Translations under genes and position numbers: made by a program
In this document: positions 1,579 through 8,324 of the stretch, piece by piece
Position numbering within the stretch: position 1 is the stretch's first letter
How the letters are laid out: each line of letters begins with the position of its first letter
Notes under the pieces: generated by a model
Databases searched by the model: none
The model's input: only the letters and a program-made list of their open reading frames with translations
Told to the model about the DNA's origin: nothing
Assembly (NCBI GenBank): GCA_947488235.1
Contig: CANLAQ010000001.1
Span: 48,812-112,811 of the forward strand
Reading direction: 5' to 3'
Length of the DNA: 64,000 bases
DNA from: Flavobacteriales bacterium
GTDB lineage: Bacteria; Bacteroidota; Bacteroidia; Flavobacteriales_D; Crocinitomicaceae

Positions 1579-2586
1579 TTAATCATGCTGGTAGCAATAC
1601 CCGCTTGGATCTTTGGTCATCCGTTTACAACGCGCACCTTTTTTAGTTGTTCCCATGCATTGACTTGAAGTTCCAACATTTTTAGACGAATGATGCGAAC
1701 GACTTCCAGAACTACTTGATGTCCAAGACCAACAGGCAATACAAACCTCTTTTTCTAATGTATTTTCTTCTTTATCAACTAAACCAGGAAAAAAATCAAT
1801 ACCAGTAATGCGCTCTAATTCATCTATCGAGACAACATAACGGGTCAAAGATTCTTTAGAACCTTGATTAGGAAGAATAAAGGCTATCGCTTTTGGATGT
1901 TCATGATAGTCGAGGATTACCTTATAATAATATTTTGGAACGCTTACCTGATTGGATCCTATGGTTGGGAGACCTGCACTTAGAACAGGGCCAGTCACCA
2001 CATAAACAGATTTATAATCTACTGCCCAATCACGAACAAGTTCCTCAAGTTTCTTCCAAATACCCCTATTAAAACTTGGATCTTGAGGACTCATATTACT
2101 ATAATAAAAAGATTCTTGCATGGTATTGGCAGTGGAGGACATATCGGCAGCAGGAGCCAAATGACCTCGATCATATCCAGATCCTTTATAATCACGATCC
2201 GTTGCACTTCCTGTACTTACATTTGGATCAGATTCAAAATCATTAGATCTTTCATACAAACGATTCGTTTCATCAGCTGTTAACTCGTAAGCCACCCAAG
2301 CTGCTTGTTCATATGCTTCACTGTAGCGAATAGTATACGCTAAATGCCTGATGATTTGATCCTTTGAATGAATAAGAGGCAATTCCAAATTTTCTTGTGC
2401 AACCCTTATAGTATCTTCAAGCGCCACATTGGAAACTATTTGTTCTACTTTTGGCTCAGCTTTTTTTTCTGTTGGAGACAGGATATTTCTTTCTTCCTTA
2501 ACCTGATGCTTATTGGATAAGACTTTTACTAAAACTCCAAGACAGAGGAAGAAAAAAATTAAAAAAATTATGGAATATTTTTTCAT
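1579..2586 (-). CDS. DNA/RNA non-specific endonuclease (NUC1-type) with C-terminal Cys/His-rich tail
   Basis: The 335-residue product starts with a hydrophobic signal or anchor ('KKYSIIFLIFFFLCLGVLV'), so it acts outside the cytoplasm. The core carries the beta-beta-alpha-metal nuclease motif 'DRGHLAPAADMS', with the catalytic His, and the downstream 'NMSPQDPSFNRGIWKKLE' containing the metal-binding Asn. Such enzymes cleave DNA and RNA without sequence preference. The last ~35 residues ('CMGTTKKGARCKRMT', 'GYCYQHD') are a separate Cys/His-rich module, resembling the DUF5763 tail found on varied Bacteroidota proteins and possibly zinc-binding. I prefer the ATG at 2586 to the one at 2598, which would overlap the upstream sugar dehydrogenase gene; the two genes are probably cotranscribed. 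Confidence 0.88.
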   Translation of the reverse strand: MKKYSIIFLIFFFLCLGVLVKVLSNKHQVKEERNILSPTEKKAEPKVEQIVSNVALEDTIRVAQENLELPLIHSKDQIIRHLAYTIRYSEAYEQAAWVAYELTADETNRLYERSNDFESDPNVSTGSATDRDYKGSGYDRGHLAPAADMSSTANTMQESFYYSNMSPQDPSFNRGIWKKLEELVRDWAVDYKSVYVVTGPVLSAGLPTIGSNQVSVPKYYYKVILDYHEHPKAIAFILPNQGSKESLTRYVVSIDELERITGIDFFPGLVDKEENTLEKEVCIACWSWTSSSSGSRSHHSSKNVGTSSQCMGTTKKGARCKRMTKDPSGYCYQHD

Positions 2587-2587
2587 A

Positions 2588-4225
2588 TCAATTGACAATT
2601 ATTTTTTTGTTTACCATCATACCATTTTTAAATGCGGCGCTTACTAAATAAGTGCCACAAGACCATTGTGATACATCAACAGAAAGGGAATTCGTTAAGG
2701 AAATAGTTTGATAATAAAGCTCCTTTCCATTAAGATCAAAAACCTTTAAATAATCTAACGCTTTATCCATTCCAAAGACAACCTTAAAATAAGACTCAGT
2801 AGGATTCGGATATATTAAAATTGAATTTTCAGGAATAATAGGATCTTTAGGAAAATTAATCTTCCAAAGAGCACCACCTCTTTCGATGACATACAGATCG
2901 TTTCCAAGCAATTCAGCATCTACAGGCAAATAAAATCCAGAAACAACACTTCTTGTTATCATTTCATAGTTATCAATCGAAGTATTATATTCTAATTTCA
3001 TTTGAATCAAATCGCGAGAAGGGTCAACAAATGGGCAAGGAATACCCCAAGGGGAGATTGGAGAAAATCCAAGACTATCACCCCCGGGCATAAAACTCAA
3101 AACAAAACCATCACCTTTATAGGGAAAAGACAAATTACTATCCGCGTCAAAGACCAATCCTAAAGGGGACCGATGCGCGGTGAAAGAACTCACATAAGTT
3201 CCATTTTGACTTGCTTGCAGAACGCCTCCGCTTATAGCATCACGATAAAAATCTCCAGCAGAACCTAAATTACGAATAGGCTCCATCCAATTTACATTAT
3301 TAGGAATTGAGGGAAATCCTGAAGTGTAATTAAACCATCCTGCAGCAACACCACTTCCATTTGGATTTACAAGGGGATCATTGTGATAATCATAGTTGGG
3401 ATATTGTATAGGATTATCATTTCCACCCATTCTCCATGGAAATCCATAATTCCTACCTTGTCTCAACCAATTCAATTCTTCCGGATCATCTCTTTCACCA
3501 GAATTATCAATGGCAAAAAGGGTATCCTTGCTATCCCAAGCCATGTCGTAAGCGTTGCGCGTACCTGATGCAAATAAATAAGGACTATTAACAATAGAAG
3601 CTGAATCATTGAGCAATAAAACATTCGAACTGTTTATAGGAAAACGAAAAATACGAGAAGTTAAAGGCACTTCTCGAGTATTTGGCCAAGCACCATTATT
3701 ATCATCTAATTCACCTAAATGAGTCCGTGCACCGCTACTAACATAAATATGTGCACCACTAGGATCAACTGCAACACCTGTAAAACCATGATCTCCTGTT
3801 GGACTAGCAGTTGGATAAGGATCCGTACTCACCATGACTTCCCATGTGCGTTGACCATTAAAGAAAGGAGTTCCTTTGACCACATAGCCAACACCAACGA
3901 TTGAGGTCCAATTATTACCCGAAAGATACAGAACGCCATCACGAAAACAGAGCCCTTGGAGACAGGTGATGCCATGATCAGCCGAAGTAAATCGAAGAGA
4001 ATCAGTGGCGCCACCTTGTTCATTTAAAAAAATCTCATAAATATCACCTGTTATTATAGCATAAAAAAGATGACCGCTTACAACATCATAATCTAATTTT
4101 GTTGCATAAGGTTTGGGAGTGAAAATTGAATCAACCGATAAATCATTGTATAGAGGAAAAACACGCTGTTGAGCAATAGCAAGAAAATTTAATCCAATAA
4201 ATGCAATGATTAAAAAATTTCGCAT
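2588..4225 (-). CDS. PQQ-dependent sugar dehydrogenase-like beta-propeller protein with T9SS type A sorting domain
   Basis: A signal peptide ('MRNFLIIAFIGLNFLAIAQ') is followed by a beta-propeller resembling glucose/sorbosone dehydrogenases, with segments such as 'GLCFRDGVLYLSGNN', 'GTRNAYDMAWDS' and 'NYGFPWRMGG'. These enzymes oxidise aldoses using PQQ in the periplasm or outside the cell; substrate and cofactor use are not proven here. The last ~75 residues are a type A sorting domain ('ILIYPNPTESYFKV', 'CGTYLVSAAF'), so export by T9SS is expected. The ORF-track start at 4240 is a TTG; ATGs at 4231 and 4225 fit the signal peptide better. The nuclease gene follows directly. Confidence 0.8.
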   Translation of the reverse strand: MRNFLIIAFIGLNFLAIAQQRVFPLYNDLSVDSIFTPKPYATKLDYDVVSGHLFYAIITGDIYEIFLNEQGGATDSLRFTSADHGITCLQGLCFRDGVLYLSGNNWTSIVGVGYVVKGTPFFNGQRTWEVMVSTDPYPTASPTGDHGFTGVAVDPSGAHIYVSSGARTHLGELDDNNGAWPNTREVPLTSRIFRFPINSSNVLLLNDSASIVNSPYLFASGTRNAYDMAWDSKDTLFAIDNSGERDDPEELNWLRQGRNYGFPWRMGGNDNPIQYPNYDYHNDPLVNPNGSGVAAGWFNYTSGFPSIPNNVNWMEPIRNLGSAGDFYRDAISGGVLQASQNGTYVSSFTAHRSPLGLVFDADSNLSFPYKGDGFVLSFMPGGDSLGFSPISPWGIPCPFVDPSRDLIQMKLEYNTSIDNYEMITRSVVSGFYLPVDAELLGNDLYVIERGGALWKINFPKDPIIPENSILIYPNPTESYFKVVFGMDKALDYLKVFDLNGKELYYQTISLTNSLSVDVSQWSCGTYLVSAAFKNGMMVNKKIIVN

Positions 4226-4307: not shown

Positions 4308-5732
4308 TTAAAGTTTAATATTGTACTTTTCAATTTTACTAATCAGCGTGTTAATAGCCCATCCAATGGCAATAGACGACTGTCTTTTATTCCCTTTGAA
4401 ATACTTAAGAACCCTTTCTATATGTTCTTTTTCAACAAAGGAAATATGCATTGGTTTTTCCATTGGACCTTGCGATAATCGTTTTGGTAAAACTTCAGCA
4501 TTGACTAATTCCTCATTAAAAACATACAATCTTGAGATGATATTTTCTAGTTCCCTAACATTTCCGGGATAAGAATAATTTAATAGCACCTCCAATGCTT
4601 CTTTTTCTAAGATTAATTTTTTGGGACGATTTAATTCTTTTTTCTTTTGATTTAAAAAATACTCCATCATCGCTTTTATATCTTGTTTACCCCTTTCGAC
4701 CAATGATGGTAAATCTAATTCTACTACGGACAAGCGATAATATAAATCCCATCTAAACTTACCTTCCTCACACAACTTCGTTAGACTTTGATTTGTTGCA
4801 GCGATGACCCTAACATTTATTTTCTTAGCTTTTCCTCCAAGAGGCATAACCTCTTTTTCTTGCAAGACACGCAATAAAGCTTGTTGCATATAAGGAGAAA
4901 TATCCCCGATTTCATCTAGAAAAATAGTGCCTTCATTAGCTTCTTCGAATAAACCTGTGGTGTCCTTATCGGCACCCGTAAAGGCGCCTTTTTTATATCC
5001 AAACAAGCGAGATTCTAATAATGAATCACTAAATGCAGAGCAATTAACCGTAACATAAGCTTGTTCTGATCTAATTGAATTTTTGTGAATGTATTTAGCT
5101 AAATTTTCTTTTCCCGTTCCACTCGCTCCTAAGATTAATACCGTTACTAAATCCGTTTGAGCAACCTTTTCTGCATTGTTATAAATCCACTTTATTTGAG
5201 GCGTTATAAAATAATCATCAGACACATTGCTTCTTTTAACTTGCTCTTGATGATAAATGGCTGTAACAGGAAGTGATGATTGTTCTAATTCAATCTTAAT
5301 TAATTCCGGTTTATCTTTGGTTTTAGTATACTTTGCTTCTCTTGTTTGAAAAAGAGTTGTGTTTAAATTTAATCCAAGGTGACTTAAATACCACACCACT
5401 TGCATTGAAGGAGTTCCAGGAGTTATAAAAACATCAATTTTATCCTCTTTTAGACTTGTTAGTAATGGATCCACTTTTGATTGAATTTCCCGATGATCAA
5501 TGGGATCATTAATCCCCATATAAATAGGTTCAATGATACGATCAGGGTAAGTTCTTTTTAAGAAATTCACCAAGAGTTCCGTTCTTAGATCACTTTCTTT
5601 AGCACTTGAAAGCAATAAATGTTGATCTTGTTTAAAGAAGAATTTGTGATAATTTGCCGTTGGTCCATTTTCGAGTACTTTACCTTCGTAAAAGTCATTA
5701 TTATAAGCCACCCAAGAAACCAAAGTCTTCAT
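4308..5732 (-). CDS. Sigma-54-dependent activator with RtcR/CARF-like N-terminal sensor
   Basis: The 474-residue protein has three parts. Residues 1-160 resemble the CARF-like sensor of RtcR, with 'DVFITPGTPSMQVVWYLSHL' in the place of RtcR's nucleotide-binding loop. Residues ~180-405 are a complete AAA+ sigma-54 domain: Walker A 'GASGTGKE' (202-209), 'GAFTGA' contact loop (249-254), Walker B 'GTIFLDE' (268-274), arginine-finger region 'FRWDLYYRL', and 'YPGNVRELEN'. The C-terminus (~435-474) looks like a Fis-type helix-turn-helix. E. coli RtcR controls the RNA-repair operon rtcBA in response to RNA-end signals; no rtc gene is present here. The gene lies 116 bases downstream of the retron reverse transcriptase on the same strand, suggesting it regulates that locus. 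The ligand is unknown. Confidence 0.88.
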   Translation of the reverse strand: MKTLVSWVAYNNDFYEGKVLENGPTANYHKFFFKQDQHLLLSSAKESDLRTELLVNFLKRTYPDRIIEPIYMGINDPIDHREIQSKVDPLLTSLKEDKIDVFITPGTPSMQVVWYLSHLGLNLNTTLFQTREAKYTKTKDKPELIKIELEQSSLPVTAIYHQEQVKRSNVSDDYFITPQIKWIYNNAEKVAQTDLVTVLILGASGTGKENLAKYIHKNSIRSEQAYVTVNCSAFSDSLLESRLFGYKKGAFTGADKDTTGLFEEANEGTIFLDEIGDISPYMQQALLRVLQEKEVMPLGGKAKKINVRVIAATNQSLTKLCEEGKFRWDLYYRLSVVELDLPSLVERGKQDIKAMMEYFLNQKKKELNRPKKLILEKEALEVLLNYSYPGNVRELENIISRLYVFNEELVNAEVLPKRLSQGPMEKPMHISFVEKEHIERVLKYFKGNKRQSSIAIGWAINTLISKIEKYNIKL

Positions 5733-5848
5733 ATATCAATTTTTGACATAAATATAAGAATATTTAGGTAGTAAATCCATCAACATTAAATTTCATCTTA
5801 CTTAATTCACCTCATAACATTATCACAAAGAGCCTTAAACCTAATCGC

Positions 5849-6970
5849 TTATTTTTGTGTCTTAGATTGATAAGATAGCCAAGGAATCAAATCATTATAC
5901 ATTTTTTGATAAAGAAAATCATCTTTCCCTCTCACTTGACCGATAAAATTAATGTGTCCTGTTAATGAATTCAAAAATCGAATGTTTCGTTGTATAACTG
6001 AATGTGAAAAATCACCTGCATTTCTGCTTGAAGCATGATCAATTCCATTAGTATTTAAATCATGGAGCATTGCTCGTACCTTTTTGAGCATCTTACGATC
6101 AATATTTACTTTTTCATTAACAATTATCCCTGTCACCACTTGTTTTTTATTTTTGGACCTCAATCTAAATTTTTTATCATTCAGAGAAAAACCATGCGTC
6201 ATAAGTATGTGTTTTAAGTACTGAACTTGAATTTTAGTGATAAATTCATTCGAAGAAAAACTCAAATCATCTGCATATCTTGTGTAAGTTATCCCTTCTT
6301 GCTCACAATAATTTAAAAGAGCATTATCGAGAGGTAAACAGATTAAATTGGAAAGTACAGGCGAAGTTGCAACACCTTGTGGTAAAACGCCATTATAGGT
6401 TAAAAGATAGGTTAAGGCTTCCGAAACAGATTCATCAAATCCAAAGGGAGGAGATCTAAAAAGCGAGTAAACCTTTTGGGCTGGAATTGAACTAAAAAAA
6501 TCTTTTAAATCTAGATTAAGAAGATACCTTTTACCTACATGAGGCAGGGCATTCTGTACAATATTAGCATTTTGAGAATTATGTTTTACCCGTAAAACAA
6601 AGCCATGAACAGAGGGATGTTTTATACACGAATACACTCCTTGCAAATGACTGTTAATTTTCTTTTGAACTTTATTCAGCCTCCCTTGCGGCGCATTAAT
6701 GACACGGAAACCTTTTTTCCTTTTTGGAATAGAATAATTTAAATAATTCGGATAATTCAACATTAATTCCAATTCAGTCCAGGACAATCTAAGAAAAAGA
6801 CATAAATCTAAAGTTGATTTTATGCCTAACATTCTAAGTGCATATTTTTCAGCTGTATTCAAAAAAGTAAATGGAGTGGTGCGTAATGAATTATTAGGAT
6901 AATAAATAAATTTCCAACATTGATCTTTAAAAATCTCTTTTTTTATCGATAAATCCTCTATTTTATTCAT
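5849..6970 (-). CDS. Retron-type reverse transcriptase
   Basis: The 373-residue protein is almost entirely a reverse transcriptase domain. It has the retron hallmarks 'NALPH' (140-144, region X NAxxH), 'LNLDLKDFFSSI', 'LPQGVATSP' (196-204), catalytic 'YTRYADDLSFSS' (YADD at 232-235) and 'QVVTGIIVN' (VTG at 279-281, region Y). Retron RTs copy part of their own structured RNA into msDNA, primed from a 2'-OH of a conserved G. All catalytic Asp residues are present, so it is probably active. There is no maturase or endonuclease domain, arguing against a group II intron. The ATG at 6970 lies 17 bases past the a2 repeat of the msr-msd RNA, the standard arrangement. The upstream DnaB-like gene and downstream CARF-sigma-54 gene share its strand. 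Confidence 0.95.
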   Translation of the reverse strand: MNKIEDLSIKKEIFKDQCWKFIYYPNNSLRTTPFTFLNTAEKYALRMLGIKSTLDLCLFLRLSWTELELMLNYPNYLNYSIPKRKKGFRVINAPQGRLNKVQKKINSHLQGVYSCIKHPSVHGFVLRVKHNSQNANIVQNALPHVGKRYLLNLDLKDFFSSIPAQKVYSLFRSPPFGFDESVSEALTYLLTYNGVLPQGVATSPVLSNLICLPLDNALLNYCEQEGITYTRYADDLSFSSNEFITKIQVQYLKHILMTHGFSLNDKKFRLRSKNKKQVVTGIIVNEKVNIDRKMLKKVRAMLHDLNTNGIDHASSRNAGDFSHSVIQRNIRFLNSLTGHINFIGQVRGKDDFLYQKMYNDLIPWLSYQSKTQK

Positions 6971-6987
6971 AATTATATTTTAAAAAA

Positions 6988-6997
6988 AGCCGTTGAT
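6988..6997 (-). repeat. Retron a2 repeat
   Basis: Plus-strand AGCCGTTGAT is the exact reverse complement of bases 7130-7139. It closes the 3' end of the retron RNA 17 bases before the reverse transcriptase ATG. Confidence 0.88.
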
Positions 6998-7129
6998 CCT
7001 TATCTCAAATTTGCATGCATTCTTTCGAGCGAAGCGAGCAAGAATGGAGGCAAAGCCCCTAATTCCACTCAACTTCTAAATGGGTTGCGAGAACACAACC
7101 ACAAGTCTATAAATGACTCATAAGTTCTA

Positions 7130-7139
7130 ATCAACGGCT
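7130..7139 (-). repeat. Retron a1 repeat
   Basis: Plus-strand ATCAACGGCT pairs perfectly with 6988-6997. It starts the retron RNA only nine bases after the stop of the DnaB-like gene, so helicase gene and RNA are probably in one transcript. Confidence 0.88.
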
Positions 7140-7148
7140 CTTATACTA

Positions 7149-8189
7149 TTAAAAAGGATTATCCTCCTCATCCAAATTCAGTTTTCGATCTTTTCTAATT
7201 TGAAATCTACTTTTTCCTTCTTCAAAAGGAGCCAATTTGCTTTTTGCAAAATCGACATTGAATTTAAGTGTAGTTACGGAACCAAATCTATTTTTAGCTA
7301 AAATCAATTCCATCATAGCCAAAGTAGATTCATTATACTCATCGATTAATAAACCGTAATACTCGGGTCTATATACAAAGAATACCTTGTCTGCATCCTG
7401 CTCTATGCCACCGCTTTCTCTAAGGTCAGTTAGTACAGGCCTTCTATCCCCCCCCCTCATTTCAACACTTCTGCTCAGTTGACTTGAAGCAATTATACAC
7501 ACCTTCAATTCAAGCGCAATCTTCTTCAAAGTCCGACTAATGTATCCCACCTCGAGAACACGACTGTTTCGATAGCGCTTAGAAGAAAGCATTTGCAAAT
7601 AATCAATAATAATTACCTTAATGCCCTTTTCTCTAACCATTTTCTCACAATAATGGAACAATTCGGTCATCGATTCGATTTGTCGATCGTAAAATGAAAG
7701 ATGAAGAGCAGAAAAATACGATTTCAATAACTTTATATCATCCGCATTCACTCTTTTAAAATCAGCCGGATTATGCAGCGGAATCGGTCGCTCTAGAAAA
7801 CCATTGGCAATCCTATACATCAAGGCAGTACTCGTCAAGTCAAATGAAAAATAGAGCACCTGAGTTTGCAAAGAAATCCTAGTCGCAAGATCTAACAGAA
7901 CTAGTGATTTACCCATACCGGGTCTTCCGCCAACTATTATATATTCCCCTAGACTGAGTCCACCTAGTTGACTATCATAATTCGACCAACCAGTGGGAAT
8001 AAGTTCATTAGAATTTCCCTCGCTATCGTCAATGGTTTCCTCTAAACAATTTAAAATGGTTCTAGAGGTATAGTCATCGGTTTCACTTAAACTAGGTTTC
8101 GCTATGAGCTCCTTCAATCTATCAAGTAAAATCCCGTTCTCTGGAGGAAAATCTATTAATATATTCTGTATTTTATCTTGAATTGTCAT
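7149..8189 (-). CDS. DnaB-like helicase (RecA-fold domain only), candidate retron-associated protein
   Basis: The 346-residue product carries the full DnaB C-terminal ATPase: Walker A 'GGRPGMGKS', 'LYFSFDLTSTAL', Walker B 'VIIIDYLQML', the 'SSQLSRSVEMRGG..RP' and 'DLRESGGIEQDAD' region with the arginine finger, and 'AKNRFGSVTTLKFN'. The usual ~150-residue N-terminal domain that contacts primase is replaced by only ~60 residues, so it is unlikely to be the replicative DnaB. The ORF-track start at 8276 is a TTG; the first ATG is at 8189. The stop lies nine bases before the retron a1 repeat. It may act on msDNA or invading DNA, or be the effector restrained by the retron; this is inference. A phage-derived or recombination helicase unrelated to the retron is the alternative. 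Confidence 0.9.
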   Translation of the reverse strand: MTIQDKIQNILIDFPPENGILLDRLKELIAKPSLSETDDYTSRTILNCLEETIDDSEGNSNELIPTGWSNYDSQLGGLSLGEYIIVGGRPGMGKSLVLLDLATRISLQTQVLYFSFDLTSTALMYRIANGFLERPIPLHNPADFKRVNADDIKLLKSYFSALHLSFYDRQIESMTELFHYCEKMVREKGIKVIIIDYLQMLSSKRYRNSRVLEVGYISRTLKKIALELKVCIIASSQLSRSVEMRGGDRRPVLTDLRESGGIEQDADKVFFVYRPEYYGLLIDEYNESTLAMMELILAKNRFGSVTTLKFNVDFAKSKLAPFEEGKSRFQIRKDRKLNLDEEDNPF

Positions 8190-8212: not shown

Positions 8213-8229
8213 GACAATTATGAAGCCAA
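8213..8229 (-). promoter_or_regulatory. Candidate sigma-54 (-24/-12) promoter upstream of the DnaB-like gene
   Basis: The minus strand reads TTGGCTTCATAATTGTC. It matches the TTGGC of the -24 element and TTG of the -12 element with correct spacing, but the -12 dinucleotide is GT rather than GC. Initiation about 12 bases downstream would give a short leader before the ATG at 8189. No 'CAAA' occurs between 8190 and 8433 on the plus strand, so an exact TAnnTTTG box is absent for this gene. Confidence 0.45.
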
Positions 8230-8299
8230 CTTAAAAACACCCTATTTATCTCAATATATTTTAAATAATATATCAATTTTTGAAAAACATAATATATTT

Positions 8300-8324
8300 T
8301 GATATTATAAATACTTTTATATCA
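8300..8324. promoter_or_regulatory. Imperfect palindrome, possible activator site
   Basis: TGATAT (8300-8305) and ATATCA (8319-8324) flank an AT-rich centre, about 70 bases upstream of the -24-like element, a position where sigma-54 enhancers occur. The AT-rich background makes a chance match quite possible. It also lies in the divergent region before the FAD-linked oxidase gene. Confidence 0.25.

Follow-up and report, generated by a model that had tools for sequence, protein, structure and literature searches.

A CARF-domain sigma-54 activator as the probable switch of a retron operon in the Crocinitomicaceae

Here, we describe a regulator gene and the retron next to it in a 64-kb stretch of contig CANLAQ010000001.1 (hereafter, 'the window'), taken from a metagenome-assembled genome (MAG; 89% complete) of a freshwater-type member of the Crocinitomicaceae (Bacteroidota). 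The regulator, a sigma-54 activator composed of a CARF sensor, an AAA+ ATPase, and a Fis-type helix-turn-helix (HTH), lies 116 bp behind the retron; the reverse transcriptase (RT) gene adjoins it on the same strand, with a DnaB-like helicase gene behind the RT gene. We propose that the regulator is probably a ligand-gated activator of the operon of helicase, non-coding RNA (ncRNA), and RT, making the retron inducible, and that it acts as a transferable defence switch. Activation of the operon as such is very probable, because a palindrome and a canonically spaced sigma-54 promoter lie in front of it and because, among relatives, this arrangement tracks linkage to the regulator. Judged from gene neighbourhoods, the regulator is a mobile defence switch that the retron has taken up, and not a dedicated retron part, since it occurs without the retron and elsewhere adjoins NTF2-like or restriction-modification (R-M) genes.

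A 15-bp palindrome, TATCAAAnTTTGATA, stands beside the start of the regulator gene across Bacteroidota, and when dyads were counted in all upstream regions, TATCAA-N3-TTGATA ranked first together with its nested forms. At a score of at least 12, the palindrome was found near 51 of 71 regulator genes and 11 of 16 helicases, near 0 of 22 RTs, and near 10 of 530 other genes, several of these last being divergent neighbours or targets. Of the genes behind the associated sigma-54 promoter, cl1 is the commonest (L024:11113-11580 and ~30 other loci); it occurs in 29 of the 86 genomes of the genus set, the regulator usually stands beside it, and its 155-residue product folds as an NTF2-like protein. 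In most loci, cl1 is preceded by a -24/-12 promoter, TTGGCAY-N5-TTGNC, at ~50 bp from its start, and the helicase operon has a site of this kind 40–56 bp before the aligned start. Across 72 loci, the distance from palindrome to sigma-54 site is 56–57 bp in 16 and 75–77 bp in 37, other distances being seldom seen; the two classes differ by two helical turns.

For the window itself, a palindrome matrix was trained on the upstream regions of the regulator and cl1, leaving out the helicase promoters and the window's own clade (G000, G065, and G108, all without cl1). In the 64 kb, this matrix ranked first the site at the regulator's start, a probable autoregulation site, and second the site upstream of the retron helicase (Table 1). 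The window has 82 sigma-54-like motifs, of which that of the retron alone has a palindrome at canonical spacing, and the same holds for the palindrome loci listed from the whole genome, at which the regulon was checked. The promoter also bears on the helicase start, which is probably the ATG at 8189: a mechanically called TTG at 8276 appears too early, because relatives align at the ATG and the sigma-54 site lies in front of it. A looser enhancer-plus-promoter pattern, scanned over the 86 genomes, was discarded as too degenerate (79 of 86 match); it also picked up the helicase promoters of G083 and G089, the former belonging to a helicase with full enhancer and promoter (L205:211-1293, on G083:C67).

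The protein has the parts that such a promoter calls for. An earlier note, made from the letters of the window, had called a CARF-like sigma-54 activator here, and this call is confirmed, with the coordinates exactly as given. The domains are CARF at residues ~1–150, AAA+ at 178–339 including GAFTGA, a lid at 349–425, and the Fis-type HTH at 432–470. Pfam finds Sigma54_activat (3.5e-62, residues 178–339), the AAA lid, and HTH_8 (3.6e-5, 432–470), and the PADLOC model RtcR_PspF2--CARF_AAA_HTH (PDLC01995) matches residues 1–473 over its full length (1–481 of 481; 1.2e-131, 438 bits). GASGTGKE, GAFTGA, and LDEIGD are present, and both ATPase motifs are intact. Together with the palindromic upstream activating sequence, the -24/-12 promoter, and an rpoN gene in the source genome, the protein thus shows the sequence features of a sigma-54 enhancer-binding protein. 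Modelling of the sensor, which the note had suggested, was carried out with AlphaFold on residues 1–172 with 36 relatives as input and gave a confident model (predicted local distance difference test 88, predicted template-modelling score 0.80) with a six-stranded Rossmann-like CARF fold. Its top Foldseek matches in the PDB are Csm6, Can2, Cam1, Csx1, Cad1, ring nucleases, and Csa3; a separate profile search of PDB sequences gave as best match, weakly, the CARF nuclease 8bao (E 0.008). As both point to CARF proteins, we assign the sensor to this fold, which makes a nucleotide-like ligand plausible. Compared with a sister genome, the regulator is 100% identical in protein (RT 94%) and 98.5% in DNA (RT 94.7%); recent transfer was considered and rejected, the excess over the RT being only mild in DNA, which points to purifying selection.

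It is conceivable, albeit unlikely, that the regulator binds these sites mainly to repress, or that it holds retron expression at a basal, ligand-independent level with no inducible signal. The palindrome does overlap the regulator's own start region in most members, and some enhancer-binding proteins act free of ligand control, such as PspF, which has no sensor domain. Yet the protein keeps GAFTGA and both ATPase motifs intact and has a CARF domain that is likewise kept and conserved, and the palindrome precedes, at a phased distance, a sigma-54 promoter, a promoter type that requires an activator.

The distribution of the two partners was followed through the genus set, in which the relatives recovered by name are Crocinitomicaceae and Flavobacteriales MAGs. 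In the genus, 30 of 86 genomes have the regulator and 14 of 86 the helicase-type RT, and all 14 retron genomes carry the regulator (hypergeometric 3e-8, not corrected for kinship). Regulator and retron share one contig, within ~5 kb, in 10 of these; in G103 a contig break inside the intervening gene parts them, and in G033, G089, and G093 they are on separate contigs. Helicase, RNA, RT, and regulator run in one direction in the window and in G065, the two neighbourhoods read in the window's clade. When RTs were searched across the order, this retron also turned up in other genera of the family (31 of 399 genomes).

The promoter can be followed through these loci as a natural control. Palindrome and sigma-54 site are present in 14 of 14 standalone retrons that have a linked regulator and no cl1 or von Willebrand factor A-like (vWA) operon in front. 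They are absent from all nine retrons for which the fetched stretch shows no regulator (L328-331, L333-336, and L339), in which the retron RNA is kept (Fisher 1.5e-4 for promoter against linkage, 14 and 0 versus 4 and 9, not corrected for kinship). One of the nine, L336, is a second retron of G766; the other one in that genome, L326, comes with regulator and promoter alike. The retrons of G033 and G089, unlinked but with the regulator in the genome, have palindrome and sigma-54 promoter, consistent with action in trans. L323 and L327, on short contigs that hold no regulator, also have the promoter. Three linked retrons behind vWA genes (L139, L140, and L141) have no promoter of their own; by position, the upstream cl1 promoter can serve those of L139 and L141. 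The retron of L131 ends at a contig end.

Several observations weigh against the proposed activation, or at least against its exclusiveness. Sixteen of the 30 regulator carriers in the genus have no helicase retron, so that the regulator is not retron-specific, and helicase retrons also occur with no regulator nearby. G093 has the regulator elsewhere in its genome, and its unlinked retron (L339) is promoterless; conversely, G083 has promoter and helicase, with neither regulator nor RT detected in a fragmented, 86% complete assembly. The helicase lineages share ancestry, and the counts are therefore not independent. Dyad discovery, as distinct from matrix training, took in the window. Lastly, the sigma-54 consensus alone shows no excess over chance in the window (147 matches versus 177 expected), and the retron's site is weak by itself (p ~0.09 over the region); we retain it for its spacing and its conservation in relatives, not for its own score. 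Co-conservation, which the note had proposed as a check, is thus one-sided, with every retron genome of the genus having the regulator and 16 others having the regulator but not this retron. The suggestion that the regulator drives retron expression gains support from enhancer, promoter, and linkage pattern, though not as an exclusive function.

Some of these points would fit a regulator that is an unrelated neighbour in a shared defence-island hot spot, the retron having a constitutive promoter of its own: the regulator is often found without this retron, standing beside R-M genes elsewhere, and the helicase retron is found without the regulator. We consider this improbable, because a palindrome with a correctly spaced sigma-54 site precedes every standalone linked retron, and because the same promoter precedes two unlinked retrons of regulator-bearing genomes.

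The note had also likened the sensor to that of RtcR, the sigma-54 activator of rsr-rtcBA in E. coli and Salmonella, whose signal is RNA 2',3'-cyclic-phosphate ends (PMC9879122). The two proteins share a CARF-like sensor, AAA+ domain, Fis-type HTH, and sigma-54 dependence. Similarity of the sensor is detectable and weak, with the Pfam RtcR domain at the N-terminus (3e-4) scoring 20.8 against a gathering score of 23.1 and the NCBIfam RtcR equivalog 271.6 against a cut-off of 650. The observation that no rtcB lies nearby extends from the window to the genome, in which RtcB was not found (the MAG being 89% complete, and RtcA not having been searched genome-wide). Unlike RtcR, the regulator has as predicted targets the retron and NTF2-like, DUF3127, and R-M-like genes. 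That we are dealing with an ordinary RNA-repair regulator of the RtcR type in its original job, the retron being incidental, is very improbable: the weak Pfam match and RtcR-like domain order are outweighed by the absence of RtcB, the NCBIfam score below cut-off, and the fact that the window's only canonical enhancer–promoter pair is the retron's. For the ligand-gated activator that we favour, the absence of RtcB and the sub-threshold family scores mean that the ligand may be that of RtcR or another nucleotide derivative.

The neighbouring element, predicted in the note to be a retron, is indeed one, having both the RT motifs NAxxH, YADD, and VTG in the RT alignment and a covarying msr-msd RNA. 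The RNA lies between the RT and helicase genes and is closed by a1 (AGAGCCGTTGATT / AGAGCCGUUGAUU; 7141-7129) and a2 (GGATCAACGGCTT / GGAUCAACGGCUU; 6999-6987). Its fold is more stable than that of shuffled sequences (z -3.9). In 13 related RNAs, pairing is kept in 98.6% of cells of the a1/a2 stem and of two msr hairpins, and 10 pairs show compensatory change, a level of covariation far above slid controls and reached by 0 of 500 shuffles. An Rfam search left the RNA unmatched. Known retrons likewise have these RT motifs and, upstream of the RT, a structured RNA closed by a1 and a2. The closest PADLOC types (XI, I-C, and XII) are single-gene RT–effector fusions of which only the RT part matches, the 373-residue RT having no C-terminal protease, Toprim, or TIR effector; this points to a retron with a separate DnaB-like partner, and the helicase accompanies this RT type in every locus where the contig permits. 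The PADLOC retron effector models did not match the helicase, which is a putative retron effector or accessory protein; the retron as a whole would presumably act against phages. In viral contigs, no relatives of the CARF regulator were found, and RT relatives are distant (at most 38% identity). The N-terminal domain of DnaB is missing from the helicase, whose acidic tail closes with an invariant PF and resembles the C-terminal tip of single-stranded DNA-binding protein (SSB); the tail is possibly a docking motif, or else just a legacy of chromosomal DnaB.

Table 1. Features of the regulator–retron locus (window positions)
Feature	Position	Strand	Remarks
CARF-AAA+-HTH sigma-54 activator, RtcR_PspF2 family	4308..5732	-	474 aa; open reading frame list, Pfam, PADLOC, CARF model
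Predicted regulator palindrome TGTCAAAAATTGATA	5734..5748	.	-16 of regulator start codon; top-scoring site of window
Retron reverse transcriptase	5849..6970	-	373 aa; NALPH (NAxxH), YADD, VTG; no C-terminal effector fusion
Retron msr-msd RNA	6987..7141	-	a1/a2, two conserved msr hairpins, variable msd hairpins
DnaB-like helicase, C-terminal ATPase domain only	7149..8189	-	alignment of relatives; putative retron accessory/effector
Predicted sigma-54 -24/-12 promoter TTGGCTTCATAATTGTC	8213..8229	-	40 bp upstream of ATG 8189
Predicted enhancer palindrome TTTCAAAAATTGATA	8271..8285	.	second-best window site; 56 bp upstream of sigma-54 site
Weaker tandem palindrome	8290..8304	.	score 6.8; spacing 75 bp; ~two helical turns from first

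Other genes recur around the regulator. A vWA-like protein, cl7, is found in its neighbouring operon (L030, L031, L032, and L027), in L030 and L031 between cl1 and the retron helicase. Beyond the family, the regulator's neighbours in Fodinibius, Spirosoma, and others are R-M-like genes, and distant relatives stand at HsdM, N6-methylase–HATPase, and similar genes. In Fodinibius-type loci (L150:7025-9865, L153:7120-9864, and L159:7102-9864), large N6-methylases lie behind the same palindrome and sigma-54 promoter, and both of those scanned (L150 and L153) have a C-terminal HATPase domain. A DUF3127 gene, divergent from the regulator, lies behind the same enhancer and promoter in L122:9521-9868 and L125:9522-9869. 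RTs of other kinds, unaccompanied by a helicase, are found 1–7 kb from the regulator (L108:5824-7113, L149:18471-19676, L163:7494-8708, L165:1844-2959, and L174:1529-2566); these were rejected as targets, having no upstream palindrome. Just past the locus, window positions 1579-2598 encode a DNA/RNA non-specific endonuclease with a C-terminal DUF5763-like piece, a relative of which directly follows the regulator in L127 (2653-3654).

In the mechanism that we envisage, the Fis-type HTH would bind the palindrome at one site over the regulator's own start region, probably for autoregulation, and at one or two sites upstream of the helicase–ncRNA–RT operon. The CARF domain would take up a ligand, probably nucleotide-like, and in the ligand-bound state the AAA+ ring would remodel sigma-54 RNA polymerase at the promoter, whereupon transcription of the helicase, msr-msd RNA, and RT would rise and the retron would become inducible. 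Studies of retrons usually treat them as constitutively poised. The present one looks like an immune system switched on by a signal rather than always on, given the palindrome and matching sigma-54 promoter in front of it. We are evenly divided on a broader two-step immune circuit, in which a nucleotide or cleaved-RNA ligand derived from infection would act through the CARF enhancer-binding protein and sigma-54 on an undescribed, DnaB-like-helicase type of retron, the same regulator running NTF2-like/vWA operons, methylase–HATPase genes, and type I R-M genes through a single enhancer code that is conserved and helically phased.

The regulator's protein family and its R-M association are already known: RtcR_PspF2 CARF-NtrC-like proteins have been described next to R-M systems (Makarova et al. 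2014, PMC4012209), in agreement with the full-length family match and the R-M-like neighbours of distant relatives reported here. What differs from that description is the retron as target and the mapped palindrome–sigma-54 code. In the literature searched, we found no report of the retron association, the enhancer–promoter code, or the helicase retron (an earlier mention in subscription papers being possible), nor any description of the ligand and regulon of the CARF-sigma-54 family. BrxR/WYL regulators of defence islands likewise travel with varied defence systems, but differ in sensor and mechanism, being WYL-winged-HTH proteins with neither AAA+ nor sigma-54 (PMC9122601).

The locus provides sequence-level evidence for ligand-gated sigma-54 control of a retron, which would add an early signal-sensing layer to retron defence. 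The palindrome–sigma-54 code is a search tool for further targets of the CARF-sigma-54 family, and it makes the question of the ligand approachable by a simple reporter.
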